DNA of 64,000 nucleotides. Origin: Mya arenaria. Its lineage: Eukaryota > Mollusca > Bivalvia > Myida > Myidae. This document shows positions 1-30,058 of this stretch, one piece after another; position 1 is the stretch's first letter; every line of letters begins with the position of its first letter. The stretch is from contig NC_069126.1 of the NCBI RefSeq assembly GCF_026914265.1, forward strand, positions 30,755,354-30,819,353, given 5' to 3'. Below the pieces are notes generated by a model. It was not told the origin of the DNA. It saw only the letters and a program-made list of their open reading frames with translations, and made no database searches. Made by a program: the position numbers and the translations under genes.

Positions 1-345
1 AGATATTTATTTCCGCTAAACTTTGCATGCTTACATTGTACCGTTAAGTTAAGTGCGTAACAAGAATGTTGTGGAGTGAACACAAAGGATCATCTGTTGT
101 TTTTCTAAACAAAATAGGGGGAATAACACAACAAGTACTAACAAAAGAGTAACGATCCTTGCTGTACATGTGTATTTTGCTTCTGGCAACATGCATACAA
201 AATTTCATTTGAATATCCTTATTATGGCCATGGTTAAAGTTTTGCATACTAACAACATAACCCCAAAGCTATGACAATATCTCAACTGTTTTTCCTTCAT
301 AAACAGACAAACTTTAATATCGCAGAAATAATGTTTTTTACATAC
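1..345 (-). other. SMUG1-like intron 2 (partial)
   Basis: Starts with donor gtatgt at 345-340 on the minus strand. I see no continuation of the glycosylase (the expected next residues resemble VPFGEV), so the next exon lies left of the window. Confidence 0.6.
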
Positions 346-3300
346 CCCATTTTGCGACATCCCATATGGTCCAGGGTTCATTCCGAGGAAGAGAAGCGTC
401 CGCTCCGAGGTACAGTATTTGGCCACAAAGTCCCGATGAGTTTGAAATGCATAAGTCAGGGGACTGTAAATAACCGTCACTGGGTAGCCATACTTGATTG
501 GCAGCATTTTCTGGCATAGCCTTTGCTCAATCTGTAAAAATTGAGCGCCGATCGGAGACAAATCGTCCTCAATTGAGAAATTAAAAATTGTCTCGATCTG
601 ATTATTATAGTCATACGTGTCAATGGTGCATTCTGGATTATCGACATCAACCATTGGGCCAAGTTTGGTAGGTGCCATAACAATCGTGTTTGGTCGAGGC
701 TTGTTTTCATCTGGCGGTTCTTTATCAATTTTACGTTTTCGTCCTCTTTTTTTCTTTGGAACCACACCTGGGGCTTCCATATTGAACTCTGACCCAGTGC
801 TTGCTGGACTAGCATTTCTAGGTATGCTAAAGTTTGACATTTCTGGGTGATACTGACCCATGTTCTCTGGCGGACAGTGTGAGGATTGCTGATTATAATG
901 CTGACTGTAATTACCCTGTGGCCCACTAAAACCCTGACTAGGATATCTCGAACTCGGCTGCTCATTTGACGTTGGCGGGTACATGTTATTCTGAGAATTA
1001 AACTCATTACCTCCCCTATTTTGGTAATAGCCATTTTCGTACCTTCCGTTACCATAGTTTCCATGGTTACCTTGAAAGTTTTTCCCTGGTGGGTTTTGAT
1101 TGTAGAAGGACTCGTTTTGATTATACTCGTTGCCATGGTAATTCGACGGGTTTAATTGTGGCTTGTCCCCACCATTTTGGCTCTGGCTCATATTTTGGTA
1201 ATTCTGCTGTTGGAAGTTGTTTCTGTATTGGTGTGCTTGGTCAAATTGCTGCCCGCTAAAATTCTCGCCGCTTGGATGATTTGGCTGGCTCCCCATTTGA
1301 GGATCACCCCTATTGAAATTTCCCCACCGGTTTCCAGCCATGTGATTATAATTATCAAAGGATTGGTTCCCATAAAGACCAGTTCTTTGACCCCCTGCAG
1401 AATAAACCTGCCTACTAAACTGTTTCCCGTAATTCTTTGAACCATACCCTTCTTTAGAATTCCCTTTCGTCCCTTCCTGAGCTTTTTTCTCTTTGGTAGT
1501 TTTATCAAGATCAATGAAAACCTTGGGCGAATCAGTCTCCCGAATTTCATCGCTTTCGCTTTTAACAGCCTCACAACCATGACCACTGTATATGTTTTCG
1601 ATATACTGCTTTGAGTGTAGAAAATCCCATTGTCCCTCATCAGGGACACTAAACTCCTGAGAGGGTTGCGTGGGGGCAACTTGGTTATTTCCATCTTTAC
1701 ACAAGACTGGTTCCTGGCTCGCGTTACTCACACTTGACTGAGAGTCGCATCTCGATGGCGGATGCATTGGTCCTGGATCTGACATGACAGAATTTTCATC
1801 ATAATCCATTGACGAATCGACACCCGGAAGATTACTCGTGAAGTTTGAGTTCTCTTCTTGAGAATGGAAGCTAGGCTCTCTGGGTAATACGCTACCAGGA
1901 CTTTGGTTTGCAGCATAACAATTGTAGGGTGGCAAGATTTCTGGCTTCTCGTTGAAGCGTTGACCTTGAACACAAGGGTATGGCTTTTGATTATCTGGTT
2001 CACTTTGGCACAACTGAGGGGGATTCATTTTGTAGTAATGATTGTCATTGTTCATTCCTTCAACTCCGTAAGATGGGAGGTAACCTTGGCTACCGACTGG
2101 TACATGCGGTCCACTATTTTCCTGAAAACCAGTCTGAGTATTCAATGGGGGCTGAGATTCCGGATAAGTTTTGTTCGTGTTGTCATTTGACATTTGAGTA
2201 TCGGAGTCAGAGTCAGTGAGATGAGAGCTCGATATCGATGCACTCATCGAGTCCTCTGTGCTTTTCAGCATACTTATGGCACCTTCAGTAGAAGACATTC
2301 TGGATCGCTTATTTTGCGCTCGCCTACTCACAAAATCCGGTAAAGACCACCGCCGTGCAACAACCTTTGAACACTTTGGTTTTGACTTTTTGCAATTCTC
2401 ACTTAAGGGAGACAACAAACATTCACTAGATTTAGCACTGACAGAGTTACCCTTCTTTACCTTCTTTGGAGAAAGTAAGGTAGGGGAGAGAACTTTGGTA
2501 TCTGAGGATGCTGAGACAGAGTTACTCCCCTTTCTGTTTGGTGAAACCAATGAGGGGGATAGTAATTCCTTGCTCCTTCGACGTTTTCTCACTTCATTTA
2601 CTTGCTGACTTAGTATCAGTAACTCATCTTTTCTACTCGTACTTCCCTTAGTAGGGGAGGTAACTTTGAATTCGCAAGATTTTGGTGAGCAAAGCTCCGG
2701 GGATTTTAAACCACCGAAATTGTCAGCTTTCGAAGTTTGGGGTATTTCAATTCTCAAAACTGGAAGACTTACATGCAGATCTTTAACTATATGTTTTTTG
2801 AATGCCTTATTACCAGAATTTTCCGCTAATTGGACATTTTCACTTGCAGTACTATCTTTTGAGTCATTGGTCTGATCAGATTCAGAACTTTTCGCCTTTT
2901 TTTCCCTATTGTCTGTTTTATTTTCCTCTATTGCACAACCCTTAGAACATTCAATGGATTTCGTTATGTTAACTAAAGCACCATTGGAGTCATTTCTCAA
3001 TTCATTCTTTTCACCTGCAGTATGTTCAACTTTAGTTTTTATCTGCTGAGATTGATCAACTGATTCAGATACACAATCATCAGCTTCCGTCAAGTCAATA
3101 TGAACACTTGAGTTTCCTAGTGATCCACTTATGGCTGAACACTGGTTTAAAGAATATGAAATGTTTGAATTCACATTAACCAATCTTGAAATTCCTGAGC
3201 TAAAAACTGGAACTGGTCTTATCGGATAATGCGCTTTTGGCCTTTCAGGCAAGAGTTTAATATTCTCTGAAGCACATTTTGTTACATTACCATTGGCGTC

Positions 3301-3932
3301 AACAGTTTCAGATTTGGGCTCTTTTTCTTCAGAGTGACTTTTTGCAGTCAATGCATCAATTGAGAATGCAGAACATGCTTTAGATGTGACTTTATCTTGT
3401 TTTTCAGTTTCACTTCTTTTATCATCTCCAAATGGATTCCAAATTTTTGCCTCTTGTTTATTTTCACATTCACCTGATGTTGAACTTTTTGCGCCTATAA
3501 CAAAAGGATAATCAGGCTTAACAAACTTGGAACTTGAAACCTGATCCTGTCTTAAGGGCTCACTAAACCTTCCTGGGACATTCAAACAAGTTCCTATTGA
3601 CCGATCATCGAAACTGCTTCTATATTGCGACACCGGCGAAACTGAACTTGTTCCTGATCGGTAAATCTGATCAAATGTCAGAGGGGAAGGATTCTGCGAA
3701 AACACAAAATTCGGGCTTAGAAGTAGATTTCTTGGCTCTTGGGGCCCAAACCCATACAGCGGTTCCAAGCCGAGCGGTGGTAAGTGCAAGTCTGAAACTG
3801 GTGACAGATATCTTGATGATGCCGGCAGGGGTCGATGAAAATGTTGACCAATGGAAAGAGGCGAGAGTGGGTCAATCAAGGGCGACCTGAAGAGGGATGG
3901 CAAATAAGCGGGCTCGGAGAAGCTTGACGCAC
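346..3932 (-). CDS. SMUG1: SMUG1-like exon 2 (3,587 nt; low-complexity region plus start of glycosylase fold)
   Basis: The acceptor reads ctatttttcag then GTGCGTCAAG at 3932. The donor is AATGGG then gtatgt at 345-340, so the exon ends in phase 0 within GMSQNG. The open frame runs through the acceptor to an ATG at 4056, but that ATG lies in intron sequence and I do not take it as the start. Repeats inside the protein include two related blocks around residues 499-545 (LLSPSLVSPNRKGSNS and VLSPTLLSPKKVKKGNS). Confidence 0.85.
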
Positions 3933-5429
3933 CTGAAAAATAGCAGATGCAATGTGTATTATATACAGATTTATTCTTGCTATTGTTTATAATGTACATA
4001 TCATACAGGGCTTTTTCTATAGTACCCACGGGTCCGACTATTGGACCCATTCCCAAAGCAAATTATAAGATATTTTCCCCAATCTTCAGAAAAAAATCCT
4101 AATAAAAAAAAAAAAAAAATATTTTTTTATTTTTTTTAGACAGTCTTTTAACCTGCACTGGTTCATTTTCACCATCCTAATAAATTATGTGATGTAAAGA
4201 TTTTTTGGTAATTGAACTCATTCAGAGATCAGTATGAAATATTATCTGTCATGATTTATTGCAATAGATATTTACACCCCAAGGATTGATAATTTTTGGG
4301 TCTTTTAAACTAATATTAAATCATTTCCTAATTCGCAGGAGGCTAGACAGCTTTTTCTGTAAAATTTCCCAATTTAGGCATTTTCACGAAGCAAAATTTC
4401 CCAAAACGTCTAGGGTCTTTTTCCCAAAATGGGCAGAAAAAGCCCTGTCATATTGGTATTCATCAAACATCAGATTGCAATATCTTATGTTAGACTAACA
4501 TATTAGGAAATAGAGAAACTTATTCGAACGAAAGCCGAGCTGATAATGTTTCTCGGCAATTTGGGGAAAAGTTGTTCAAAAGCAACAATAAATACTTTGA
4601 TTGGCGTTTTCAATCAATTTACCAAAAAAATACCCGCACCAGTAAATCAACATGTTGGTACATGTAGGATAATACGGTACCTCTGTACCTACATACCCAC
4701 GCCTTAAACTGTGGGTAAAGAAACAATTTGTTTATAATTAATCATGGCCTTATTTTCATTCTTTCTATGAATGTATATTGTCCTGGATTTTATAATTTAT
4801 AAAACAAAAGTTTTTTCTGAACAATTTCTGATTTTTTGTAAAGAAAATAGTTTGATTTACAAATAAGAAGAATATCCAGCAGATTATATATTGACTATTA
4901 AGTGAGGTTAGGACCATAACAAACTGAGTCTCAGTGTTATCAATAAGAACCAGCTGCCAGCCAAGACGGCTGGTTCAAGTGGCAACTGGGCAAGCTCAAG
5001 ATTGAAAAAATATCCAGCAAGTGGATTTTAAGTAGAATAAGTTTTGGCTGGTGGGCTACTTTACTTTTTGAGACAGTTCAACTGACACTTATTGAGAACC
5101 CTGGAGAACCTTCATAATCTTTTAACACTCTCCTCAACAGCTTCAAATATTATTCAAATAATCTGCAGAATTTTATATACATCTATAATTATTTCTAATA
5201 TATCACTTGTTCAACAGTATTATGTGCATAATATTTACTGATGTTAAAATGTACACAAAAGTTAAGAAAATAAAAAAGAACCCGGCAGTGTTGACCACTC
5301 ACCTGCAGGTCCAGTGACTGATCCAAGAGCGGGAACGTGAAGACCACCCAGCGGGAATGAGCTTCTAGTGGATGTGTGTGTTGTCCATGCAGCGTTAAAT
5401 GGTGGTGGATAGCCAGGATAATGGGACAT
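346..5429 (-). CDS. SMUG1: SMUG1-like uracil-DNA glycosylase with very long N-terminal extension (5' two coding exons; 3' part outside window)
   Basis: Two exons, 5429-5303 and 3932-346, joined by a phase-1 intron, encode 1,238 residues before the reading frame leaves the window. The last 74 residues or so match the start of the SMUG1 fold: an FLQIEQRLCQ helix, YPVTVIYSPLTYAF, HRDFVAKYC, then the catalytic-loop signature GMNPGPYGMSQNG (residues 1226-1238; the conserved Asn is 1228). SMUG1 removes uracil and oxidised pyrimidines such as 5-hydroxymethyluracil in nuclear base-excision repair. Human SMUG1 is 270 aa with about 30 residues before the fold, so the N-terminal extension here is exceptional. 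It is low-complexity: Ser/Pro-rich segments, two SUMO-interaction-like motifs (VHIDLT at 319-324, VFIDLD at 847-852), a Gln/Asn/Gly/Tyr-rich prion-like stretch (about 890-1085) and a basic KKKRGRKRK block (1102-1110). The stop and the rest of the fold lie left of base 1. Glycosylase identity is strong; one continuous product is inferred from matching exon phase. Confidence 0.85.
3933..5302 (-). other. SMUG1-like intron 1
   Basis: Donor gtgagt at 5302-5297, acceptor tttttcag at 3940-3933. AT-rich; contains a homopolymer A/T patch near 4105-4138 and no further exon that I can recognise. Confidence 0.6.
5303..5429 (-). CDS. SMUG1: SMUG1-like exon 1 (42 codons, probable start)
   Basis: ATG at 5429-5427 opens MSHYPGYPPPFNAAW and runs to GGACCTGCAG followed by the strong donor gtgagtgg at 5302. 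It ends in phase 1, as exon 2 requires, giving Gly43 across the junction. A pyrimidine-rich tttttctcgtag just upstream (about 5450) could be the acceptor of a further 5' UTR exon. The start choice rests on frame and phase only. Confidence 0.65.
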
Positions 5430-7799: not shown

Positions 7800-7868
7800 A
7801 TGAATCGACTCTTTGGACGGGGGAAGCCGAAAGAGCCTGCACCGAACCTTACTGACTGTGTTTCGAAT
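7800..7868 (+). CDS. CHMP5: CHMP5 exon 1
   Basis: ATG at 7800; 23 codons ending ...LTDCVSN in phase 0; donor gtaagtac. Confidence 0.97.
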
Positions 7869-10800
7869 GTAAGTACTGATTTGTAAGTTTGTGATCTAGT
7901 TAATAATTATTGAACCGAAAATCCGTCACATATTTTCGAGACTCACTAGATATTGTAATGTGTACAACTTATGCGTTTTACTTTAAGCTTTCGATGAAGA
8001 TACTATGTTGACGTATAATATGAAGCTTTGGTAATTGGATCCAAGAATATGAATTAACAAATTGTATATGGTTACCAAAACAATTCATAGCAATATTTGA
8101 TTTATTGCGAAATGGGTTGAACTGTTAACTGGTTTAAGCATGAAGCATAACAAAATTACTAGATGGTTATGTTGAAAGAATTTATAACCTAGCATGGCTG
8201 GTGCCACTTGTTTGTTTGTACAAGATGTTACTGTCAGTAAAATGACTGGTCTTGTTCGGCCCTAGTTCACCTAAATGGCCGTTAACGAGTCTTTTGACAT
8301 TTTTTTTTACTATGGCAGACTCGTGACGTCCACCATCCCAGCAAAAAGTTGCGAATGTTATAATTCAAATTTCTATAAAAATATTATTGCCGATTATTAA
8401 ACACATATTTATATATGTCATTATGCAAAAAAAAACATGTTCAGATATCATAAAACACTTAAATGTGTCGATTGTTTATCAAGTATCTGATAGGTTGTGT
8501 ACATGTTTAAAACGGTATTCATGAATACATGTATGTGAAAATAACAACTCTTATGACAAATTAAATTGTCTTGAATTATAAACATTGAATCATTCAAGTA
8601 TATCCACTAAGTTACTGCATCATAAAGCAGCCGACTATTTACACGATTCTGAACCATGACCTCTGACGTCAAGCGCGTGATCAATACAATGTAGAATTTA
8701 CTATTTATTATTGGTGGTTAAAAATAGCTATGACGTTTCATGGAATTTTCCACAGAAAACGAGGCAAGAAGGCCTTCAAAACCATGCACTTTGAACGCGT
8801 GTCTGACCTCCTGATTTTCCGAAAATGTGTAACCTAGAATTTCTCGGAAGAAATGTGTTTATCAGTCATTAGCAAAAACACGTTTATAAGATACATGTGC
8901 AACTAGTGAAATACGAATGCAAAACGGGCAGAGGAAAAATAATAAAAAGCAATTTACTGGAGCCGTCGTAATCAGTTGAAAATTTTAATAAAATAAATAT
9001 AACTTTAGCGTAGATTCTTATCTAGTGTCCGCAGAGTTTCGCGGAGTTAACCCCTCCGAGGAATGCCGAGTTCGTTATTCTTCGGTCGACTGATCACCCT
9101 CGGAGGGCCTTAAATTCAAACTCTGAGGAAAGTTGACAGTCGATAAAATCATTGTGTTGGCCGTGATAGCAAAAATTCGCGGAGGGAAACGGAAAGTGGG
9201 TCTAACTCGTTGAGTGTACTGTATTGAACAATTTTGTCATTGTTATTTAACATCGATGCATAATATTACTATATATATTCTTTCGCCCGGTGTTAAATGG
9301 TAGGGAGTTGTAGCGTTACAGGGATACATAAGAAATGTCAAAATAATAGAAACTTTATCTTTTTTCAGATTGACTCTCGAGGAGAATCAATTGACAAGAA
9401 AATTGCTCGCCTTGATGCAGAGTTAAAAAAGTACAAGGATCAAATGGCAAAGATGAGAAATGGGCCCTCGAAGGTAACAGCATATAAATTTGTCTGTTTT
9501 TAAAATGATGTGATTAATTTAAATTAATTTAAAGAATTTCTTCTTTGAAATTAAAATATAATTGTGTTTGTTCAATGAAGTGATTAATGTAAATAAATTT
9601 AAAGAATTTCTTCTTTGAAATTAAAATTGTTTTTGTTCAATTATTTATAGTTTTGATATACATCATGTTTTTGTTTACCAGTCAGGTTAAACTTATGGAC
9701 TAAGGTGTGAGCTATAGAGTTATAAGAGTGTGCAACACCATGCATTGCTTTGGTAGATTCCTTCTGCCCTCTTGGATAATTTGTACCTTTCTTAGAATTG
9801 AAAGCTTTCGATAATGATTGAAGACTATCAGCAATCTCCTTTGTTATATACAAACTTATTATAAGTTAATTATATAATTATAAATACATACAAACCTTAA
9901 ATATCTGGCAGTTAAAACCTAAAACAACTTTATTTTAAAAATATTGTTAACAGTTTTTGTCAGTTTTATAGTGTTAAGTTTTTCAAAGCTCAAATTCCGC
10001 AATACAAATGTGCCCCTAAGCACCCTGTCCCTTTACTGCAGCACCCTGCTTTTTTTTAAAAATCTGGTCAAAAACCTATTATGTACAATACATGTACCGT
10101 ATTTAAAAGATTACTTGATGGTGACTCGTTATGTTTTATTTTTGCAGAACATGGTCAAACAAAAAGCAATGAGAGTGTTAAAACAAAAGAAAATGTAAGT
10201 ATAACATGTAGCTAGAAAACATGTAAATTTGCTTTTTGTCATATTAATGTCCTGATAAAAATGTATCTTCTGTTTAAATATTATTGAAAATACAACAAAA
10301 TGCAGATAAAGGTGATCTAATGAAAAATAGTTTTTGTTCAGGGTGATTTTCAGGTTTGTTGAGAACAAATCAATATATTATGATGTTTTCAATTTGAAAA
10401 ATTCCTTTATTTTTGTATCAAAAATTTGGTTGGAAGGTCTGAGTAACTAGAAATGAAAAAAACTCTCACGTTCTTATCATCCAGAAAAAGCTATGTGCAC
10501 ACTGACTGTTCTTTCAAACAGGTATGAAAATCAGCGAGAAAATCTTTCAAACCAGTCGTTCAACATGGAACAACAGAATTTCGCCATACAGCAGATCAAA
10601 GACACAAAATCAACAGTAAGTGAGGTTTTATCTTGTAAAATTTGTATTGTTTCCTAAATATAGCCCTTTTATTTCTGACTTGAGATAGCATACAATGAGT
10701 TGACTGATTGTTCAGAACTTTGTTTAAGTTAACAACTTCATTGTTGTTAACTTTTAAACTTTAAGTATGTTTTGACGGTTTCGTATATTTTATTTAATCT

Positions 10801-13800
10801 AGTACAGCTGAAACAGTTGTCTCAAATCTTATTTTAAATATCACAGATCACAAGTGTTTTCTTCAAACTTTCAGAGTATTGTAGATTTGAAAGTAAACAA
10901 CGATTACTTTGACACTTTTGTTTACTTAAAAGAAGTTCTTAACAATCTGTCCATTGTAAGTTTAATATATAGACGTTGAATTGAATTTTGTCATGTGAGC
11001 ATGATTTGTGGTAACCAAGGTTTTATTTCTTTAACAATTTATGGTTTAAGAAATATTGAGCCGGTATTGTGTCTTTGAATTTAAGATACGACATACTAGT
11101 ACTTTCCATATCTTTTTGTGTGTTTTTTTTTTTAAATATATTTAAATAAGCAAGTTTCATTGGTGAAACACTCTTAAATTTTGGTACATGTGTATATGTT
11201 CCAATAGTAGAGCAGATTATTAGTTAAATATAAAGGATATTTAAAAATTGCTAAATGCTCATGAAAAAAGTCATTCTATGTTTATTTTTCCACAGGTTGA
11301 TGCAATGAAAGTGGGAGTTAAAGAGTTCAAGAAGGCTTACAAGCATGTCAACCTCGATCAAATAGAGGTAAGGCTATTTCCCAGTCAGGGGAAAACAAGC
11401 ATGTCAACCTTGATCAAATTGAGGTAAGGCTATTTCCCAGTCAGGGGAAAACAAGCATGTCAACCTTGATCAAATTGAGGTAAGGCTATTTCCCAGTCAG
11501 GGGCAAACAAGCATGTCAACCTTGATCCAATTGAGGTTATGCTATTTCCCAGTCAGGGGAAAACAAGCATGTCAACCTTGATCAAATTGAGGTAAGGATA
11601 TTTCCCAGTCAGGGGAAAACAAGCATGTCAACCTTAATCCAATTGAGGTAAGGCTATTTCCCAGTCAGGGGCAAACAAGCATGTCAACCTTGATCAAATT
11701 GAGGTAAGGCTATTTCCCAGTCAGGGGAAAACAAGCATGTCAACCTTGATCCAATTGAGGTAAGGATATTTCCCAGTCAGGGGAAAACAAGCATGTCAAC
11801 CTTGATCAAATTGAGGTAAGGCTATTTCCCAGTCAGGGGCAAACAAGCATGTCAACCTTGATCCAATTGAGGTTATGCTATTTCCCAGTCAGGGGAAAAC
11901 AAGCATGTCAACCTTGATCAAATTGAGGTAAGGATATTTCCCAGTCAGGGGAAAACAAGCATGTCAACCTTGATCCAATTGAGGTAAGGCTATTTCCCAG
12001 TCAGGGGAAAACAAGCATGTCAACCTTGATCAAATTGAGGTTATGCTATTTCCCAGTCAGGGGCAAACAAGCATGTCAACCTTGATCAAATTGAGGTTAT
12101 GCTATTTCCCAGTCAGGGGCGTACAAGCATGTCAACCTTGATCAAATTGAGGTAAGGCTATTTCCCAGTTAGGGGAAAACAAGCATGTCAACCTTGATCA
12201 AATTGAGGTTATGCTATTTCCCAGTCAGGGGCAAACAAGCATGTCAACCTTGATCAAATTGAGGTTATGCTATTTCCCAGTCAGGGGCGTACAAGCATGT
12301 CAACCTTGATCAAATTGAGGTTATGCTATTTCCCAGTCAGGGGCGTACAAGCATGTCAACCTTGATCAAATTGAGGTTATGCTATTTCCCAGTCAGGGGC
12401 AAACAAGCATGTCAACCTTGATCAAATTGAGGTTATGCTATTTTCCAGTCAGGGGCAAACAAGCATGTCAACCTTGATCAAATTGAGGTTATGCTATTTC
12501 CCAGTCAGGGGAAAACAAGCATGTTAACCTTGATCAGATTGAGGTTATGCTATTTTCCAGTCAGGGGCAAACAAGCATGTCAACCTTGATCAAATTGAGG
12601 TAAGGATATTTCCCAGTCAGGGGCAAACAAGCATGTCAACCTTGATCCAATTGAGGTTATGCTATTTCCCAGTCAGGGGCGTACAAGCATGTCAACCTTG
12701 ATCAAATTGAGGTTATGCTATTTTCCAGTCAGGGGCAAACAAGCATGTCAACCTTGATCAAATTGAGGTTATGCTATTTTCCAGTCAGGGGCAAACAAGC
12801 ATGTCAACCTTGATCAAATTGAGGTTATGCTATTTCCCAGTCAGGGGAAAACAAGCATGTTAACCTTGATCAGATTGAGGTTATGCTATTTTCCAGTCAG
12901 GGGCAAACAAGCATGTCAACCTTGATCAAATTGAGGTAAGGATATTTCCCAGTCAGGGACAAACAAGCATGTCAACCTTGATCAAATTGAGGTCATGCTA
13001 TTTCCCAGTCAGGGGCAAACAAGCATGTCAACCTTGATCAAATTGAGGTTATGCTATTTCCCAGTCAGGGGCAAACAAGCATGTCAACCTTGATCCAATT
13101 GAGGTAAGGCTATTTCCCAGTCAGGGAAAAACAAGCATGTCAACCTTGATCCAATTGAGGTTTTGCTATTTCCCAGTCAGGGGCAAACAAGCATGTCAAC
13201 CTTGATCCAATTGAGGTAAGGCTATTTCCCAGTCAGGGAAAAACAAGCATGTCAACCTTGATCCAATTGAGGTTTTGCTATTTCCCAGTCAGGGGCAAAC
13301 AAGCATGTCAACCTTGATCAAATTGAGGTAAGGCTATTTCCCAGTCAGGGGCAAACAAGCATGTCAACCTTGATCAAATTGAGGTAAGGATATTTCCCAG
13401 TCAGGGGCAAACAAGCATGTCAACCTTGATCAAATTGAGGTAAGGGTATTTCCCAGTCAGGGGCAAACAAGCATGTCAACCTTGATCAAATTGAGGTAAG
13501 GATATTTCCCAGTCAGGGGCAAACAAGCATGTCAACCTTGATCAAATTGAGGTTATGCTATTTCCTAGTCAGGGGCAAACAAGCATGTCAACCTTGATCA
13601 AATTGAGGTTATGCTATTTCCCAGTCAGGGGCAAACAGGCACGTCAACCTTGATCAAATTGAGGTAAGGGTATTTTCCCAGCAGGGGCGTACCTTTAGCA
13701 TGTTAACCTTGATCAAGTTGAAGTAGGAATAATTTCAAGCAGGGGCGTACCTTAAGCATGTCAACGCTGATCAGATTGCGGTTTGAATATTTCCCAGCAA

Positions 13801-16800
13801 GGGCCTACCTTGAGCATGAAAACATTGATCAGATTGAGGTAAGGATATTTCTGAAGCAGGGGCTTACCTGAAACATTTTAAATTGTACACACATCACATA
13901 CGAGTAGTAGAAACAAGGTAAGGTTGGTGATGTGTCAGAAGAAGACCATCCTCTATTTTGGTTGCTGAATCACCGGCCATTTTATGAAAATATGTAATAA
14001 TAGTTTGTTATTAGTAGTACTGATAATGATTATTAATGCAGATTCACATAAAAACAACCACGAAATACTGGGGCAGTGTTCATTTATCATCATTAAAAGT
14101 CATTTCTGAACTGAAGTCAATTTTTTTTTAAATTTTCAAAGTCAAATTTAAAGTGAATTATAAAAAAAAATTACATAAAATTATGTATTATGAATCTAAA
14201 GCAATGAAAATAAAGTATTTCAGATATTATGGAGCAATTATATCATAATATAAATGAGATACTTAAAAATATGGTTAAAGTTAGGAAATGACTTAAGATA
14301 TTTTATGAAAACCGACCCTGGGTGTATATACAAATACTGAAATTCTGACAATGATAAATAAATTGGCAATTATTTTTTTAAGAATATTTCTATCAATGTC
14401 ATGGCAATGTTATCTACAGAATCTACAAGACGAATTGGAAGACTTAACGGAAACTTCGAACGAAGTCCAGGAGATTATGGGCCGCAGTTATGGCATGCCG
14501 GAAGTAGATGATGACGAGCTGGAGGCAGAATTAGACGCTCTCGGTAAGATGGTCATCAATGTTAGATTTTGGATTTACATGCTTGAGCCATGCATTATTG
14601 TTTGGCTTTGAGAATATTAACAAGCTTGGCTGTGTGAAAAAGAGACATTTTTTAAAGGGATTCACTCATGTTTTGGGCCCTATTTTTTTATGGTAATGTA
14701 TCAGAAAACACTTATATCATAATATTACTCTTTAATACCACAATTGCAGAAAAACAATACAATTAAAGTATAAAAAAAGTCTGGTTTTAGTGGGTAGCAA
14801 ACTGAAGCCGGTACAGTCAAGAAAAAAAATATGAAAACTGACAACAAAACCGTTGCCCACATTGGCACAAGGACTTCATAAGTCAGCTGAGGAATAATTT
14901 AACCTTTAAGCACTTTCTTGAAAAGCGTTACTAATGGAATTTCAAAATCATGGACTTTAAAGACAATATTTAAGCATATATCAACATATGTTAAAGGGTT
15001 CCAGCCATCAGTTCTTAAGTTTTAACACATCCCAATTGTTTGCCACACTTTATTTTGCCAAAGCATGAGTGATTCCCTGTAAACAAGCCAAGACAATTCC
15101 ATTTTAAGGAAAAAAGAGAAAATGTTAAGAATAATGATAATAATAATAATATACCACATTTATATAGCGCTCTTTCCAAAAATGCTCAAAAGCGCTTAAC
15201 AATACATGGTTAAACAGTACAAATATAATATGAACTGAAACCATTCTGTTAAGATATTGGAATATGGGATATTTTCCATCTTGACTGTTCCAAATTACAT
15301 AATCACAGTTAATAAAGTAAGCGATTCAGTTTTCAGTTCCCATAAACCTGAACGAAGAAGTGAGTCTTTAGTTGTCGTTTGAAGCTTTCAAGAGAAGTAC
15401 AGTCTCTAACATGTGCTGGTAAAGTGTTCCATAGTTTAGGAGCAGCCGCAGAAAAGCTCCTATCCCCAAATTTAAGTTTTGTTTTTGGTGGCACAAGAGT
15501 TAGAGATTGGTTGGCTGAATGTAGATTTCTAGTCAGTTTGTAAACGTTGATCATATCATTAATGTATTGTGGAGCTTTGCCATAAAGTGATTTAAATACA
15601 TGAGTTAGTATTTTGAAATGGATTCTGTAATCCACTGGGAGCCAGTGAAGATCTTTAAGCACTAACGTGATGTGACTGAACTTTGACTTTCTGGTAATTA
15701 TCCTAGCAGCAGTGTTTTGTACAAGTTGTAGCCTGTTCAAAGATTGTTGTTGGACTTCATACAAGAGAGAATTGCAATAGTCCAATCTAGATGTTACTAA
15801 GGCATTTACGAGTGTTTTCGTAGCATCCTCGTTGATACACTGTCGAATGCGTCCTATCTGTCTCAGCTGAGCGTAAGTTGATTTGCACACAGACTTAACA
15901 TGCGATTCCATGTTCATCCGAGAGTCTAGAAAAGCACCAAGATTTCTAACGTTGATTGAGTGATAACAGATGTTCCAACATTTACTGTAAGATTTGATAC
16001 TTTTTCAGACTTATGACCAGATGATAAAACTATAAGTTCCGTCTTATCCGAATTCAGTTTCAGAATATTGTTATTCATCCAGTGCATGATTTCAGAAACA
16101 CAATTTGCTACACGATTTACCATGTCTTTGTTAGTTGATTCATCTATTGGTTCAAAACGACAAATACAATTGGGAATCATCAGCATAGAAATGTACATTT
16201 AGTCCGTGTTTTCGATAAATAGCACCAACTGGTTTTGTGTACATGACATAGAATTTAGGACCCAGGACGGAATCCTGGGGGACACTATAGGTCATGTGCA
16301 CGGGCTCGGAAAGCTCACCGTCAATACATACGGTCTGGTAGCGGTCGCTTAAATACGATTTCATCCACTCGAGTGGCTTCCCAGAAATGCCAAAATGATG
16401 TTCAAGACGTGTGAGCAATGTTTTATGGTCTATGGTATGGAACGCCGCAGATAGATCAAGCATCACTAAAATAGTAACTTTTTGTTGGTCCAGTGCTAGC
16501 AAGTTGTCGTTTTGCACTTTAAGTAAGGCAGTTTCTGTGGAATGAAATTTTCTGTATGCTGATTGATAAGGTTCATGTAGATTGTTGGATTCCAGATGTC
16601 TTTCTAAGCGAGTGTCTCCAGCTTTTTCATTGATTTTGGACAAATACGGAAGATTTGCGACTGGTCGGTAGTTTTTGAATATGTCAGGATCCAATGATTT
16701 TTTTTTCTAAAGAGGACGAATGTGCGAGAGTTTGAATGACGATGGCACTTCTCCGTCCCTCAATGAGATGTTGGTAATGTTTGTAATTATTGGAACAAGC

Positions 16801-19800
16801 TCAATGGAACATTCTTTCAATAACCATGTTGGAATTGGGTCAAGTTCACACGATTTGGTGGAAGAATTTGCAATTAGCTTAGAAATTTCATCTTCTGTTG
16901 CGGGTTCGAATTCATTAAATTTCACTTCTGAGTCTTGCATTTCAAGAGTAGTATTTTCATGATTTGTGTTATCAGCTGATGTGATATTGTTTCTGATCGT
17001 TTCAATTTTCTCAACGAAAAAGTCACTAAACTCTTGAGCTAGTTCTTTGGGCGATGTGTGAGATGGTAGCACAACTTCCGTTTTGTTTCCAAGAAGATGG
17101 AGAATACACTTTCTGTAAATGTGTCTCCCTCTAACCTAAGAAGTCATCGTAGGTTTGAGGTTTAATAGGGGAAACATTCCCTTGGCCTCTCAAAAAAAAC
17201 AACTAGTGCTCCGTTCTCTGTACTCAAAATGGTTGTCCGGTTAGCGCAGTGGTTAACACACTCCCTTCTCACCAAGGCGACCCGGGTTCGATTCCCAGCC
17301 TGGGCGCATGTGAGTTTGGTTAGTGGTCACCAAGCTGGACAAGTGGGTTTTCTCCGGGTACTGCGGTTTCCCCCACAACACAAGACCACACTCTCGCGAA
17401 ACATCGTGCCAACAAGAGTGACTTAGTATAAGCTATCATAGCTTTCTTCACAATCGTTGTTAAATATATAATGTTTAAACTAATTTGGTAAAATGTCAGC
17501 CCAGCTTGGTCAAATTGGGATTTTACATAGCTGATCATAATATGATTTCTTTAACCAATAATGCAAACATTTAGGTTTGGTGATTCAAAAATCAAATTTC
17601 AATCAGGAATGTCCCTGTCGGTGTTTTTAACTGTCTTTTATAGTTTCTGATTTCTAGCATAAATTATTCACAAACTTTTAAATGACAGGTTATTTCTAAC
17701 GAAAAGTGAAATTGTTATTTTAGTTTGACTGACAATTTATAATTGAGCTTCTACACAGGTACATGATAATTGATTGAATATGTTATATCTCTTGTGTATA
17801 AATGGCAATTACCACTGCTAAATTTCATACAGAAAAGTTAAAATCTAAGTCTTTTTTTATGATCTCGAATGACTATTGACGGGGATGGGGGTCCTGCATA
17901 GTAAAATCGAACAAATTCATATATATATTATAAAAGATTACTTTTATAAAGTGAAGAAAGTGTTGAAACAAGCATTGATTGGTCGAAAAAGTACTGTGTT
18001 TCTTTTTATATAAGTGGGGGGTAATTCACATCAAAGAAACAAACAAATTCCAATATATTAAACTATTTCTGTAAAGTGTTTTAGTGTTGAAACAAGCATG
18101 GATTAATTGAAAAACATTGAATTTTAGGCATTGAAAATGAGCCTTAGATTTCAGGGTCTGCAAGCATTTTTAATGTTTAGAAATAAGTGCCAATAAAACT
18201 AGTAAGCTGTTGTTGACCTTAAATTTGTGAAACGAAGGGATCAGTGCTAATTGATGACACTAAGCATAGGGTTTAGACAGGTTTTAAAAGGACAGGTTGC
18301 TACAAATGATGGATATTTTGCTAATGAAGAAAAGGGTATTTTGATCAGGCTATGAAGAACTTGATCATTATGAATTTGATGAAAAATGTTAGTTATTGTG
18401 TTTCATTGAAGAAATATTTGGTTTCAACTACCAGATATGGAAGTTTTCATGTATTTGTAATCTTATTATAAGATTGAATTAATCAAATAAATATTTGACA
18501 GTCTTAACAGCATTTCATTCTAGGAAGTCAGAAGGGTGCCCATACTGGTCCATGAGGGCAGAAGGATGCTAGCAAAAAATGACAGCATTCAGCACCCTTT
18601 AATAACTCTTCGGATAAAGCCCTATAGCATATTGAAACTTCATTTAGTAACTAAGTTCTTCATAAGAGCTGCATGCATTTATGTCTTTTGTTAGGACATG
18701 GATTACCTCCGTTTTATACATGATTTACCTCCCTTTTATTCATATACATTACCTCCCTTTTATACAGAACTGTTTTTATTTACAGGATTACCGGCTCTGT
18801 TTGTGGCTCACACTGGTCCGGGAGCATCATTGATATTAAACTTGTATAATACATAACCTCCCTTTCATACATACGTTACCTCCCTTTTGTATTCCCCAGG
18901 TGATGAGATCGGTCTAGATGAGGACACATCATACCTTGACGATGCCGTCACTACACCATCATTAATATTAAACTTGTATAATACATAACCTCCCTTTCAT
19001 ACATGCGTTACCTCCCTTTTGTATTCCCCAGGTGATGAGATTGGTCTAGATGAGGACACATCATACCTTGACGATGCCGTCACTACACTATCATTGATAT
19101 TAAACTTGTATTATACATAACCTCCCTTTCATACATGCGTTACCTCCCTTTTGTATTCCCCAGGTGATGAGATCGGTCTAGATGAGGACACATCATACCT
19201 TGACGATGCCGTCACTACACCATCTGTACCAACGAGCGACCCAGGTGGTGAAAGTGTCAGGGTGCGTCACAGTTTACATATTAATTAGCTCATCTCATTT
19301 GGTTTTTGGAAAAAAGTCAGTGTATGCGTGTTTTTAAAGGACCTTGGTGCTGTCCATAAATCCAAAATTCAGATATATGTGTTTTTAAGGAATGAATTGC
19401 GGGTTCAATGTTATTATTTGGGTATGAACGCAGTTAAGCTGCTTAAAGTAAGTGGAGTCCGGATGACTCTACGCATACTCTAACCAACCATTCATATCCC
19501 CGATAATGACATCAATCATGCAATTCATTACTTTTATTTACACTAATAGCTCATTATTTCTTTCAAGAATTGTTAGAAAAATCATTCATTTCATTTACGA
19601 AAAACCCTACAGTAATTCTTTCTCACCCATTCCGTAAATAGAACGACTTGACCGTAACTGGAAACAGTTTATCATATCAAGTCACAACAACAAAGGAAAT
19701 AGTTAATCACATCAAATCACTTTTAAACCTAAAATTGAAACGCAAATGACAACAATACATTAACATAGCATAAATAAACACTTTCTAAAATGTTGATTTA

Positions 19801-21303
19801 AGTTTTTCATGGCCTGCTGACACAATACAAACAAAAATGAGAATTTTAAACATTTTTCAATTTGCATATTAATATGCGATGATTTCCAATCCGAACATAT
19901 CGGAAGATATTGCGTTCATCTGACAATAGGCAGTTTATATAAGGAATGGAAGTTGAGGTGTAAATATATTGACATGAAGGTTGATCACTATGACAATGTG
20001 GACAAATATATCAAACCCCATAACTCTGCCTACAGTTTGCATGTGTAACACAAAGTTTTACCCTTTGACTGAATGAGGTTAGAAATGGGATTAATATTTG
20101 CATCTGTTTGCATAACTCATCGCGTCTGAGTTATTCAGTTAATTTTTCGTTCTCGTCCATTGAAATTAATTTCTATTGGCTAGGTTGATAATATCAGTTT
20201 CCTTTTGTGCCGAATGGGTATATTTTAAGTAGTTATTATCCAGTCTTAATGAAACTTGGTTACAGTAAATTGTCGGGCAAAGTGAATAATATGGTGGAGT
20301 TAAAAACTGAAGGATCCTTACTCCTAAGTAATACCAGAGTTTTGCCTTTTTACATTTACTTTTCATTTATAATTTGTACAGATAAAAAAAGTTTTTATCC
20401 AATCAGCACAAAACTTTGTAAAAGAGTTTTTCTAGGCATACTCATTAAATCAAGGTTATTAGTCAGATGAATGGCTCATGATTCATGTTATATTAGTCGT
20501 GGTAATCAGGACTATTTTTATTGGCTCACTGGTCACCATTTGTATTCATGACTTCATCACTCAAATAAACCTACACATGACACAGTTAAAATGGCCGCCA
20601 GGGTGAATTGACATGGGTTTAACCTATTTGGTAAAACAGGTGGTTTTATGAAAAGTTTCGTGCACTTTATGCTTAGATTACACATTTAACTTAAAAAAAG
20701 ATGCAATTTGATGAAGATATACTGTATATTAAATAGCTACATGTACCAGTAATGCCAGAATTAGCCTTAGGTCTTGAATGTGTTGTGTTTCCAATGTTCC
20801 CTCTTGATATTTAAAAGTTGACATCACTTTGCGCTAGGGGTCCAGGGGTCGCGTTAGGTCCCTTGGCAGGTTCAGGGTAGCCCCCTGGTAGGGGTCTTTA
20901 GTGGGCACCCTTGAAGCTTTTAAGCCTTAGATTGCAATTTAACATATCTGGACTATTTGTTAACTTTCAAAGAGCATTTAAATCTTTGATGAGACATGAG
21001 CTTTATGAACAAGGAAGTATCTTGGGACTATTTTTTATCAGGTTTTTTTTTACATTTTGTATTTAATACAGTACCGTTTCTTTTGGAGTTAAATTCATAT
21101 GAAATACATGTACATGAAAACAAAGGGATTTGTTTTTCCATACCATATGGGGATTGTTGATAATAAAAGCAGAAGACTTAAAAATACAATATAACTCCCA
21201 ATTATGGTCCCATTATTGTTAAAGGTACAATTATTGTTCTTTTTTATTCCAGGACAATGTTCCAGTGGATGAGTTTGGTTTGCCACAGATTCCCGCCAAA
21301 TAA
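7800..21303 (+). CDS. CHMP5: CHMP5, charged multivesicular body protein 5 (ESCRT-III), complete, 8 exons
   Basis: Exons 7800-7868, 9369-9473, 10148-10194, 10522-10615, 11296-11367, 14420-14543, 19164-19261 and 21253-21303 sum to 657 coding nt plus stop: 219 residues, the same length as human CHMP5. The product starts [20 protein letters not shown], has the basic N-terminal Snf7 helices ([37 protein letters not shown]), an acidic C-terminal half ([35 protein letters not shown]) and the family-typical end [16 protein letters not shown]5 is a late-acting ESCRT-III subunit on endosomes that binds LIP5/VTA1 and so regulates VPS4 in multivesicular body sorting. All introns are GT..AG with compatible phases. 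Odd points: 42 tandem copies of the exon-5 donor in intron 5, three copies of the exon-7 acceptor, and an in-phase candidate cassette exon in intron 4. Confidence 0.97.
7869..9368 (+). other. CHMP5 intron 1
   Basis: 1.5 kb, donor gtaagt, acceptor ttttttcag. No repeat family or extra exon recognised. A moderately GC-richer patch around 9030-9200 (cctccgaggaatgccgag, repeated cggagg words) stands out but is unexplained. Confidence 0.7.
9369..9473 (+). CDS. CHMP5: CHMP5 exon 2
   Basis: 35 codons, phase 0 at both ends, [20 protein letters not shown] and on to NGPSK; donor gtaaca. Confidence 0.97.
9474..10147 (+). other. CHMP5 intron 2 with a short tandem duplication
   Basis: A 65-70 bp segment ending tttcttctttgaaattaaaa occurs twice (about 9503-9562 and 9580-9628). 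Otherwise plain AT-rich intron, acceptor tttttgcag. Confidence 0.6.
10148..10194 (+). CDS. CHMP5: CHMP5 exon 3
   Basis: 47 nt encoding [15 protein letters not shown] plus two bases of Met; phase-2 donor gtaagtat. Confidence 0.95.
10195..10521 (+). other. CHMP5 intron 3
   Basis: 327 bp between donor gtaagtat and acceptor ctttcaaacag. AT-rich; nothing else recognised in it. Confidence 0.7.
10522..10615 (+). CDS. CHMP5: CHMP5 exon 4
   Basis: Completes Met, then [20 protein letters not shown] and on to KDTKST, phase-0 end; donor gtaagtga. Confidence 0.96.
10616..11295 (+). other. CHMP5 intron 4 (holds the candidate cassette exon)
   Basis: 680 bp, donor gtaagtga, acceptor tttccacag. The only structure recognised is the 81-nt in-phase candidate exon at 10875-10955, listed separately. 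Confidence 0.7.
10875..10955 (+). other. Candidate 81-nt cassette exon inside CHMP5 intron 4
   Basis: Between exons 4 and 5, a good polypyrimidine acceptor (gttttcttcaaactttcag) and a near-perfect donor (gtaagttt) bracket 81 nt with no stop, phase 0 at both ends. It would insert 27 residues starting [15 protein letters not shown] between KDTKST and VDAMKVG. Canonical CHMP5 has no insertion here. Whether it is used is unknown; it could be chance. Confidence 0.45.
11296..11367 (+). CDS. CHMP5: CHMP5 exon 5
   Basis: 24 codons, [20 protein letters not shown] then DQIE, phase 0; donor gtaagg at 11368. The last 27 bases and the donor are the first unit of the 56-bp array. Confidence 0.96.
11341..13692 (+). 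repeat. 56-bp minisatellite made of exon-5 end plus splice donor, 42 units
   Basis: Unit starts fall at 11341 and every 56 bp after that to 13637 with no insertion or deletion. Each unit holds 27 nt coding KHVNLDQIE in exon 5, then GTAAGG or a variant, ctatttcccag, tcagggg and a variable aaaac/caaac/cgtac. By my count the donor hexamer is GTAAGG in 20 units, GTTATG in 19, GTTTTG in 2 and GTCATG in 1. Unit 1 is the real exon. Units carrying ggcgtac before aagcatg extend the match back to the exon's ggcttac. Confidence 0.97.
13693..13875 (+). repeat. Diverged 58-60 bp relatives at the 3' edge of the 56-bp array
   Basis: Three further units with the same word order (agcatg, aaccttgatcaagttga, then caggggcgtacct) but many substitutions and slightly longer spacing. 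They look like the oldest, no longer homogenised, edge of the array. Confidence 0.8.
13876..14419 (+). other. Remainder of CHMP5 intron 5
   Basis: AT-rich. From about 14170 to 14325 it matches one half of the palindromic family seen at 42020-42262 (shared ggaaatgacttaagat). Acceptor tatctacag at 14411-14419. Confidence 0.6.
14420..14543 (+). CDS. CHMP5: CHMP5 exon 6
   Basis: [20 protein letters not shown] and on to [12 protein letters not shown], acidic helix region, phase-1 end; donor gtaaga. Confidence 0.96.
15127..17145 (-). mobile_element. 5'-truncated non-LTR retrotransposon (LINE, L2/CR1-like), antisense in CHMP5 intron 6
   Basis: Minus-strand fragments give, in order: [19 protein letters not shown] (from 17072), an RT core with [55 protein letters not shown] and the YADD box (16694-16152), and a C-terminal part with [35 protein letters not shown] (15917-15333). 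The RT is split over at least four reading frames, with a T-run (on the plus strand) near 16694, and no endonuclease domain is visible, so it is dead. The 3' tail (GAGCGCTATATAAATG, then ATT repeats, 15127-15200) is typical of L2-clade elements. Clade assignment is from memory. Confidence 0.85.
17231..17480 (+). mobile_element. tRNA-derived SINE (family S1), complete-looking
   Basis: tRNA-like head with A box TTAGCGCAGTGG and B box GGGTTCGATTCCC, then a central domain (gttttctccgggtactgcgg) and tail ending taatgtttaaac. The acceptor stem does not pair, so it is not a tRNA gene. Relatives at 38369-38624 and 48350-48601. Confidence 0.85.
18262..18650 (+). repeat. Dispersed repeat, copy 1 (CHMP5 intron 6)
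   Basis: About 390 bp shared with 22850-23240: gggttta...caggtt...ggacag at the left, aaataaatatttgacagtct in the middle, atgagggcagaa and taactcttc near the right. A left-end stub recurs at about 57357-57392. No coding capacity. Confidence 0.7.
18768..19163 (+). repeat. 132-bp tandem triplication carrying the CHMP5 exon-7 acceptor
   Basis: Acceptor ttgtattccccag followed by GTGATGAGATCGG occurs with exon starts at 18900, 19032 and 19164, exactly 132 bp apart. The first two copies keep the exon up to ACTACACCATC or its variant ACTACACTATC, then run into the repeated intron DNA and reach an in-frame TAA. Only the third copy continues into the full exon. Confidence 0.95.
19164..19261 (+). CDS. 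CHMP5: CHMP5 exon 7 (third, intact copy)
   Basis: [20 protein letters not shown] then [13 protein letters not shown]; phase 1 in, phase 0 out; donor gtgcgt at 19262. Confidence 0.93.
19262..21252 (+). other. CHMP5 intron 7
   Basis: About 2 kb with no exon or classified element. A GC-richer island at 20825-20910 (ggggtccaggggtcgcg) resembles part of a dispersed repeat but I cannot place it. Confidence 0.6.
21253..21303 (+). CDS. CHMP5: CHMP5 exon 8 and stop
   Basis: [16 protein letters not shown] then TAA at 21301-21303; acceptor tttttattccag. Confidence 0.97.
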   Translation, partial: DNVPVDEFGLPQIPAK

Positions 21304-27860: not shown

Positions 27861-27928
27861 TAATTTATTTACACTAGGGACAATTTGTCCCACTTGAATT
27901 GGTCATATGTTAGGATCTCCAGCTAAAC

Positions 27929-30058
27929 ATGGACGGAAATGAACAAGAAATATTGTCTTTGCGGGTGTCGCGGGTATTGGAACACATTGGAGTGACGAAG
28001 TCTATGATAAAACGCAGAAGGTCGACATGGTTAGTTCAAGAGAAACTGGATACAGTGAGAACTGCTATGATTGGTTATACATGCATCTCATATTATCTTG
28101 GGAGCCAGAGTGAGGGGACAACCACTTTGAAAATGAGGTCTGACAGAGATATGGTTATTGTAAATGAAGATTCACCAGCGATACTGGATCGTAGAGACTG
28201 GATTCCAGGAAAATCATGCCTCCTTATTGTGAAGCACCCACGATCTCCGCCTCAACATTGCAATTTGCAGAGAATTCGATCCGATGTTCCCCAAGGTAGT
28301 ACAGAAATACAAAAGCCTACTGATTTCATAGATTCTTCAGGACGAATTCTTGTCAGCAATGCGGAAAAGGATGACGAAATAAGATTGCGTTCCCTTCCTG
28401 GTGATTGCTATACTAGACAAGGTCCATCGCGGAGTCTTACGAAAGATGTCGACATTGTTGAGGCATATCGCTGTGCAAAGTTACCATCTGAGTGCAGATT
28501 CATTTTCCAAAGACCCAGGCCTGGACATTGGCCAACACCTGCATTACTTGAACAAGCAAGGAATCTTGGAATTTTCATTGTGCCTCAGGGATATCCATAT
28601 AGTGACTGTCCTAATTCTGAGTGGAGATTCTCTACGTCTCTAACAGAGAGACGTCTCATGTTTAGTCTAACAATTGTTCAAATAAAGGTTTATGTCCTTT
28701 TGAAGATGATACGCATATCTTTCTTCAAACCATTATTCGGAGATCGTTTGAGTACCTTTCATTTTAAGACTGCATTACTGTTTACAATCGAGAGCTACCC
28801 ACCCGGAGTATGGCATGAAAGAAATATTCTAAACTGCGTTTGCTATTGCCTCCAAACCCTTTATAGATGGACAAAAATCGGCTATGTCCCTCATTTTACC
28901 ATTTCAAATGTGAATCTTCTGGTTGGAAAAATCCATACACATGAACTGAAAAAGCTGTTGGAAGCTTTGGAAATGGTTATGTCAGACTATGAATATTTAA
29001 AAGCTATTGTCATGGATGATTTTGGAAAACTATATATTGAATACAGAAAACCTTCAGACCAAAGATACCTTTTGTGCGAATCGAAGAGAGACCGCATTAT
29101 TCAAATAACGTTTGAATGCATAGTTGAACACCTTTATGCTGTGCGTTCCGTTTTGACCTTTTTTATTACAATGCTATGCACGCATCCAGATGTAGAAACT
29201 GCATTGATTGACCTGTGTCCAAGAATGACAGTATTACAATGGTATATGAAACAAGGCGACTACGAAAGGCAGGCTGGGTCTACTTTGTATGAGCTACTAT
29301 GTGGAACATACGCAACAATTCATTCAGCTCATCCGGGGATGTCTGAGGAAGCGATTCCTTCAAATCATATAAGGTCATCGTACGTGGAATCAGAAGGTTC
29401 TGATCTACTGTCAGGAAGGCTTAAATATGCGGCAATGTTATACACTACTGGTCAGTACGAGGAAGCTGCGAACAAGTTGAAGAAATGCGAGGAATTGACG
29501 CAATTGAATTTTGTCTATGTATGCGATTGCAAAAAAGGAAACGTTCTTGTAACGAATACATTTAACGAAGATATTCTTCCAACGTATGACTTTGAACTCC
29601 TGAAATCATTTATTGCGTTGGATGTTATATTTTGTCGATTTGAAATAGGATGCACTCCTGGAATTTTGGTATTTGAAATGTACCGTACCTCGGCAGAGGA
29701 TTTATCACAAAGGCACCCTCAGCACGATCAGTGGATGGACATGGCAGTTATTCAGCCTAGGATGTTCCTGTATTATCTACAGTTCTTGACTTACATGCAG
29801 CTCAACCGCCCAAAAGAGAAATATAGAGCTGCTAAAAACCTATTTGACGGAGTGACAAGCTTGCACAATATTTTGTATCAGCAAGGAATGTATGCTCATG
29901 TTGAGACTGGACTAAATCTTCTTGGTCACTGCTATGAACTGGAAAACTTGGCTGATAAGGCCTGGGAATGTTATGCCACCTCTTTCAACACAGTACCGAG
30001 GAATAATGCTGCGAAGTGGCACATGATGAGACTCTTACACTCCCAAATCAGGCCTTAA
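27929..30058 (+). CDS. Intronless Mab-21 domain protein, candidate cGAS-like receptor (cGLR), 709 aa
   Basis: Residues about 40-375 form a Mab-21/cGAS-type nucleotidyltransferase. The activation loop reads YYLGSQSEGTTTLKMRSDRD (55-74), with the GS motif at 58-59 and metal-binding acids D72/D74. A third acid could be D173 or D175 in KDVDIVEAYRC. Family blocks follow: HWPTPALLEQARNLG (200-214), IVPQGYPYS, SEWRFSTSLTERRL (230-243), VYVLLKMI and YVPHFTISNVNLLVG. cGAS and cGLRs make cyclic dinucleotides on sensing nucleic acids; other Mab-21 proteins have no known enzyme activity, so catalysis here is inferred from the retained acids. The C-terminal 330 residues look helical and TPR-like (AAMLYTTGQYEEAANKLKK at about 508, AHVETGLNLLGHCYELENLA near 658). 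I see no cGAS zinc-thumb H-C-C-C cluster. Intronless structure is common for these genes in bivalves. Confidence 0.87.
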   Translation: MDGNEQEILSLRVSRVLEHIGVTKSMIKRRRSTWLVQEKLDTVRTAMIGYTCISYYLGSQSEGTTTLKMRSDRDMVIVNEDSPAILDRRDWIPGKSCLLIVKHPRSPPQHCNLQRIRSDVPQGSTEIQKPTDFIDSSGRILVSNAEKDDEIRLRSLPGDCYTRQGPSRSLTKDVDIVEAYRCAKLPSECRFIFQRPRPGHWPTPALLEQARNLGIFIVPQGYPYSDCPNSEWRFSTSLTERRLMFSLTIVQIKVYVLLKMIRISFFKPLFGDRLSTFHFKTALLFTIESYPPGVWHERNILNCVCYCLQTLYRWTKIGYVPHFTISNVNLLVGKIHTHELKKLLEALEMVMSDYEYLKAIVMDDFGKLYIEYRKPSDQRYLLCESKRDRIIQITFECIVEHLYAVRSVLTFFITMLCTHPDVETALIDLCPRMTVLQWYMKQGDYERQAGSTLYELLCGTYATIHSAHPGMSEEAIPSNHIRSSYVESEGSDLLSGRLKYAAMLYTTGQYEEAANKLKKCEELTQLNFVYVCDCKKGNVLVTNTFNEDILPTYDFELLKSFIALDVIFCRFEIGCTPGILVFEMYRTSAEDLSQRHPQHDQWMDMAVIQPRMFLYYLQFLTYMQLNRPKEKYRAAKNLFDGVTSLHNILYQQGMYAHVETGLNLLGHCYELENLADKAWECYATSFNTVPRNNAAKWHMMRLLHSQIRP

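Follow-up and report, generated by a model that had tools for sequence, protein, structure and literature searches.

Forty-two tandem copies of the CHMP5 exon 5 end in the clam Mya arenaria, and a triplicated acceptor in the same gene

Exon 5 of the predicted CHMP5 gene of the clam Mya arenaria ends in the first of 42 tandem 56-bp units, each of which repeats the end of the exon together with the position of its splice donor. Judged from its sequence, this array is not a product of chance, and its first unit is the real end of exon 5 with its donor. We consider it probable that the array is a minisatellite that arose from an exon border and is mainly tolerated, with exon definition picking the first donor and CHMP5 being dampened slightly at most. 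Additionally, the window, by which we mean the whole stretch of 64,000 nucleotides analysed here, holds features that go beyond the original prediction, namely a triplication of the exon 7 acceptor, older units within the repeat, a flanking direct repeat and a predicted truncation from every downstream donor.

The gene was located on the plus strand between 7800 and 21297 by tblastn with a human CHMP5 sequence as the query. With splice sites placed by eye, its model has eight exons that encode a 219-residue protein without inner stops, and all seven introns are of the GT-AG type. The exons are as follows.

7800-7868, plus strand: CHMP5 exon 1, with the ATG start.
9369-9473, plus strand: CHMP5 exon 2.
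10148-10194, plus strand: CHMP5 exon 3.
10522-10615, plus strand: CHMP5 exon 4.
11296-11367, plus strand: CHMP5 exon 5, 72 nt, with a phase-0 end; when units are counted from 11339, unit 1 takes its exon part from the final 29 nt of this exon.
14420-14543, plus strand: CHMP5 exon 6.
19164-19261, plus strand: CHMP5 exon 7, the sole one of three copies that runs on into the right reading frame.
21253-21303, plus strand: CHMP5 exon 8, with the stop.

The predicted protein matches the Pfam family Snf7 (PF03357) with E = 5e-49 and 166.7 bits (cut-off 27.3). The best three of 10 PDB matches are named CHMP5 (E from 4.2e-21 to 2e-17), the next being SNF7 at 2.7e-10, and the match to a PDB CHMP5 chain extends through the 11-residue end of the protein. 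The predicted gene is CHMP5, a member of the Snf7 family (ESCRT-III) that resembles CHMP5 more than it does other Snf7 proteins. The earlier proposal of a repeat built from a live exon end of this gene is borne out. When the whole genome was searched in six frames and all 52 candidates were scored, no second CHMP5 copy was seen; the seven matches at E <= 0.001 all lay inside CHMP5, one of them being an upstream copy of exon 7. Several other open frames were noted in the window. Two neighbouring ones of 223 and 184 residues lie on the minus strand at 15333-16706, within CHMP5 intron 6, and presumably represent part of a non-LTR reverse transcriptase (YADDSQLY). A 1285-residue frame at 205-4062, also on the minus strand, has a long low-complexity region and an end (FLGMNPGPYGMSQNGV) that we take to resemble a SMUG1-type uracil-DNA glycosylase, and a 714-residue frame at 27914-30058 presumably resembles proteins of the Mab-21/cGLR type.

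Tandem Repeats Finder placed the array at 11339-13725 with a period of 56, 42.6 copies, 93% matches and 0% indels, and its score of 3961 was the highest of the 32 rows in the window. The founder of the unit is the end of exon 5, AAG CAT GTC AAC CTC GAT CAA ATA GAG/gtaagg, where the slash marks the exon border. A unit thus comprises 27 exon and 29 intron bases, or 34 exon bases if a shared GGCTTAC is included, in agreement with the original description of a unit made of the last 27-34 nt of exon 5, the 5' splice site and 29 nt of intron. The parts of the repeat are listed here.

11334-11340, plus strand: GGCTTAC, left copy of a 7-bp direct repeat, inside exon 5.
11339-13690, plus strand: array of 42 units of 56 bp, with the donor GT at bases 30-31 of the unit; 20 units have GTAAGG and 22 are weak.
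13691-13860, plus strand: three older, diverged units (58, 58 and 59 bp), the last of which retains GAG/GTAAGG.
13861-13867, plus strand: GGCTTAC, right copy of the direct repeat, with single-copy intron beyond.

The span from 11334 to 13861 is 2527 nt, that is 42 x 56 + 175. The original prediction had set the 42 copies at 11341-13692; these are 2352 bases (42 x 56) as well, with the register offset by two. Its description of the copies as free of indels stands for units 1-41; the best alignment of unit 42 has one T inserted and another deleted, and the three units that follow it differ in length. GAG/GT, and with it AGGT, is present in all 42 units at a fixed spacing of 56 nt. The donors comprise 20 GTAAGG, 19 GTTATG, two GTTTTG and one GTCATG, exactly the split into 20 strong and 22 weaker ones that had been reported.

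The units are closely similar and still form an ordered set of 23 distinct sequences. At two silent sites (CTC versus CTT and ATA versus ATT) the copy in the exon differs from every one of the 41 units after it, and among units 2-41 a total of 15 of the 56 sites are variable. Three consecutive unit types reappear six units later (units 3/9 and 20/26), and a pair recurs at units 32/34. Variability is lower at exon-derived sites than elsewhere in the unit (4/29 versus 11/27 in units 2-41; Fisher P = 0.034, a value made optimistic by linkage among sites), which could be a hint of constraint or chance. A whole-genome DNA search with a 120-base query from the exon border returned at least 41 matches, and all those listed are at the array.

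On the plus strand of the window, GGCTTAC occurs three times, at 11334 and 13861 (both ends of the repeat) and at 48898, and the pair at the repeat ends likely marks the birthplace of the array. We envisage that the exon end and its donor were first duplicated in tandem between two GGCTTAC copies separated by about 58 bp, and that slippage or unequal exchange later expanded a 56-bp version by several units per step. At the far right the units have diverged and measure 58-59 bp, whereas the inner 42 are 56 bp and resemble one another closely, and the recurring blocks of unit types are as expected from block expansions.

The genomic background of such repeats was surveyed in 20 stretches of 10 kb (200 kb in total) from contigs 1-14, at hand-chosen positions. 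These contained 22 Tandem Repeats Finder rows, some overlapping, with a period of 10-100 and at least five copies; eight rows, in six stretches, were 1 kb or longer, and arrays of at least 1 kb with a period up to 100 were found in four of the 20 stretches. Since long arrays are common in this sample, a 2.4-kb minisatellite is ordinary in the clam genome, and the notable part is that the array starts on the donor of a coding exon. At C5:22000001-22010000 a 57-bp satellite runs throughout the sampled 10 kb (175 copies, 93% matches), and within the window a 51-bp unit is repeated 27.5 times at 40232-41637 with a higher-order period of 461 bp and 96-97% matches.

Genome-wide matches to three AGGTAAG motifs spaced by 40-70 bp numbered 4902 + 4729 = 9,631 against 1788 + 1584 for the reversed motif, many of them being several matches per array; at a spacing of 19-39 bp the numbers were 2270 + 3065 against 654 + 764. 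Separate clusters at the 40-70-bp spacing were counted by eye on C1, where, among the matches listed, AGGTAAG formed 7 up to 17.96 Mb and the reversed motif 16 up to 50.68 Mb, so that the two densities are alike. Single AGGTAAG motifs occurred 18 times in the 200 kb against 34 for the reversed motif, of which 10 came from one stretch; these counts would leave some excess of AGGTAAG triples, and we draw no conclusion on enrichment. When the flanks were read by eye, no clear exon was seen beside five of the seven listed AGGTAAG clusters, and in those five no open frame leading up to either of the first two AGGT sites exceeded 67 residues. A 66-bp array at C1:952232-954546 has units with TTTCTGTCCAGGTGCAGGTAAGT or close variants, an adjacent pair of acceptor-like and donor-like sequences, and no clear exon was seen upstream of this array. 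An array of about 32 bp per unit at L019:4268-5265 contains the acceptor-like TGCAGGTGC in its unit.

Splice sites were scored with human matrices and a U1 5' end sequence rather than with a model trained on the clam. On this scale the GTAAGG unit donors reach 10.37 bits versus 6.66-8.91 for the six other donors of CHMP5, and the U1 duplex of the unit donor has -10.1 kcal/mol versus -4.9 to -8.2 for the others. The weak unit donors score 2.27 (GTTATG and GTCATG) or -0.71 (GTTTTG). A score of at least 10.3 is found at 23 of the 3691 plus-strand GT sites in the window, and 21 of these 23 are in the array or its decayed tail. The remaining two are at 24891, elsewhere in the window, and at the following position.

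13918-13919, plus strand: strong donor-like AAG/GTAAGG in intron 5, outside the array.

Joined to exon 6, donor 1 alone of the 42 is predicted to give the 219-residue CHMP5. The predicted products are 156 residues from donor 2, 148 from each of donors 3-42, and 148 when intron 5 is retained. Splicing of a later donor to exon 6, or intron retention, would cut the protein after 148-156 residues, and nonsense-mediated decay would probably eliminate the resulting mRNA. Donor 1 is presumably the one used in the mRNA, because the strong acceptor of exon 5 (12.56) lies 72 nt before it and the exon would be recognised as a unit, and the array would consequently be removed along with intron 5. As a counterpoint, the donors of units 2 and 3 are identical to donor 1 and lie at +56 and +112 nt, giving exon sizes that exon definition should also accept. 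Strong donors are found in 10 of the first 12 units versus 10 of the other 30 (Fisher P = 0.006, with the cut at unit 12 picked after the pattern was seen and the units made dependent by block copying). Strong donors are thus not depleted near the exon, and there is no sign of selection removing close competing donors; their concentration there is the reverse of what harmful competition would leave.

The array also contains acceptor-like sequence. The exon 6 acceptor, at 4.78, is the weakest of the seven in CHMP5 (others 8.0-13.9). Array AG dinucleotides in a first position (CCCAG) score from -1.0 to 5.5, and two of 41 exceed the exon 6 acceptor; in a second position (CCCAGTCAG), 4 nt further on, they score from 3.0 to 9.6, and 22 of 41 exceed it. 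Array sequence could be spliced in, given that the weak exon 6 acceptor is outscored by these sites, and such inclusion would be mostly unproductive. In all 41 inter-unit intervals, a 39-nt open stretch that is in frame with exons 5 and 6 follows TATTTCCCAG or a variant of it. When GAG/GT itself is scored as an acceptor, units 2-42 give -0.4 to 0.9 versus 4.78-13.91 for the real CHMP5 acceptors.

A mirror case is present at exon 7 of the same gene.

18824-19219, plus strand: 132-bp unit in three copies, which include the exon 7 acceptor and 56-61 nt from the start of that exon; the exon copies start at 18900, 19032 and 19164.

Any two of the 132-bp copies have 4 mismatches in 132, and all three carry the CTCCCTTTTGTATTCCCCAG acceptor and the exon 7 start, with equal acceptor scores of 12.56 on the human matrix. 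Acceptors 1 and 2 are predicted to lead to a 199-residue product with a foreign end and acceptor 3 to the full protein. The predicted productive donor is therefore the first of 42 and the predicted productive acceptor the last of three, and each lies beside the body of the true exon. Both productive sites would be preferred if recognition ran across the exon, whereas a preference for the shortest intron would pick both wrongly. The triplication would be tolerated for the mirror reason, as its last acceptor adjoins the true exon body. Repeats of 22 bp were noted at 18696-18766, upstream of the triplication.

Repeats of this kind are already known, and the CHMP5 member is longer, lies in a mollusc and in an ESCRT-III gene, and is two-sided. 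The primary paper on the human CBS VNTR is reportedly Lievers et al. 2001. As given in a passage of PMC2630376, the name of this repeat, c.1444_1467+7(16_21), places its 31-bp unit over 24 exon and 7 intron nucleotides, and its 16-21 copies are invariably 31 bp long with substitutions among units. A passage of the review PMC5188458 sets the repeat at the border of exon 13 and intron 13 and connects more units with lower CBS activity and higher homocysteine. Like it, the CHMP5 unit contains an exon end with a 5' splice site (GAG/GT in 42 of 42 units, GTAAGG in 20) and keeps a constant length with substitutions, the exceptions being unit 42 and the three decayed units. It differs in having 42 units and three decayed ones, of 56 bp with 29 nt of intron, in another gene and another phylum, and in that 22 of the 42 donors are weakened. 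The earlier judgement that such a repeat is unusual has to be qualified, as the CBS VNTR shares its layout and long minisatellites abound in the clam genome.

The exon 7 triplication has a counterpart in CBS 844ins68, a duplicated 68-bp border of intron 7 and exon 8 where, according to a passage of PMC2630376, the distal site is strongly favoured and the mRNA is normal. An exon border is copied in both cases, once over 68 bp in 844ins68 and as three 132-bp copies in CHMP5. Romano 2002 is said, by its title, to concern 3' splice sites, whereas the citing passage of PMC2630376 says donors. Minisatellites at exon-intron borders are described for human segmental duplications, with 162 alignments and 27 intron modifications after inspection (PMC2812944, in part); they average four units of 30 bp and are linked to novel introns, compared with 42 units of 56 bp in CHMP5. 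In the transcribed polyubiquitin gene UBC, part of PMC10809524 describes dual-specific sites with AGGT once per tandem unit. AGGT is likewise present in every CHMP5 unit, but UBC units are 228 nt long, coding and in frame, whereas those of CHMP5 are 56 bp and intronic save the exon part of unit 1, and 56 bp breaks the frame, with truncated products predicted from all 41 of donors 2-42. Intron gain by tandem duplication (the Rogers model) is illustrated in part of PMC4974935 by potato RdRp, ATP2A1 and 24-bp AGGT repeats in fission yeasts. These cases share with CHMP5 the tandem copying of a stretch bearing AGGT or a border; the CHMP5 intron, unlike theirs, was presumably pre-existing and lengthened, and no new intron is shown. 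A looser parallel is the C. elegans minisatellite CeRep25B near alternative exons (PMC4039745, in part). No minisatellite at a CHMP5 border or a bivalve exon border was found among the matches listed in open-licence literature, searched by title and the start of the abstract, which is weak evidence of absence.

Other readings of the array were weighed against that of a mainly tolerated minisatellite. It is unlikely, in our estimation, that the array acts as a copy-number dial, in which U1 snRNP is drawn to 20 surplus strong donors and a fraction of the transcripts is lost to decay through later donors or out-of-frame array exons, so that more strong units would lower expression and alleles would differ. 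The truncation from every later donor would fit such a dial, as would a unit donor that is the best-scoring of the seven in CHMP5, the 22 of 41 second-position AG sites that beat the true exon 6 acceptor, and the lower activity with more units in the CBS VNTR (review PMC5188458, in part), but strong donors are not depleted beside the exon. Further, each unit could supply an in-frame mini-exon, with a TATTTCCCAG-like acceptor before the 39-nt open stretch, and each spliced-in unit would then add 13 residues. We regard this as improbable: the stretch is open and in frame in every inter-unit interval, but frame and openness are largely due to the exon origin and copying without indels, the acceptor before the 39 nt scores low, and the better AG 4 nt on shifts the frame. 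The donor of a unit and the next acceptor are 17 nt apart, too short for an intron, so that each splicing step would need to skip a unit.

Dual-specific or zero-length-exon (recursive) AG/GT sites might also strip the array stepwise, 56 nt or a multiple of it at a time. The AGGT in every unit at a fixed 56-nt spacing, and the use of AGGT in UBC as both 5' and 3' sites (PMC10809524, in part), would suit this process, but the unit length is not a multiple of three and GAG/GT scores so poorly as an acceptor that stepwise removal as in UBC is not favoured, and we hold it to be very improbable. Equally slight is the chance that the length or even the existence of the array is an artefact of assembly; repeats are a known weak spot of assemblies, but the array is a heterogeneous, ordered set of units with a total length of 2.4 kb, and the M. 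arenaria reference assembly was made from PacBio long reads, as stated in part of PMC10663159. The array is therefore most likely a tolerated minisatellite, albeit with a real chance that it dampens CHMP5 output. The association of more CBS units with lower activity means that tolerated may not mean silent here, and lower variability at exon-derived sites need not arise in a purely neutral array.

The choice among identical splice sites is a long-standing question that is often studied with constructs, and CHMP5 offers a natural series of 20 strong, identical donors spaced by multiples of 56 nt together with three equal acceptors. The outcome is readable, as on each side only the site beside the true exon body gives the normal protein, and the two-sided case could test exon against intron definition. 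Our more speculative proposal, to which we assign a low probability, is that the gene constitutes a two-sided splice test, with 42 donors of which the first alone is productive to exon 6 and three equal acceptors of which the last alone is productive. If both choices were near perfect, this would be strong in vivo evidence for exon definition over proximity; if not, unit number would be a dial that lowers CHMP5 via unproductive splicing, perhaps adding 13-residue in-frame inserts. Further, alleles may plausibly differ in length at the array, which lies in a core gene of membrane remodelling, and the clam is an animal studied for transmissible cancer.
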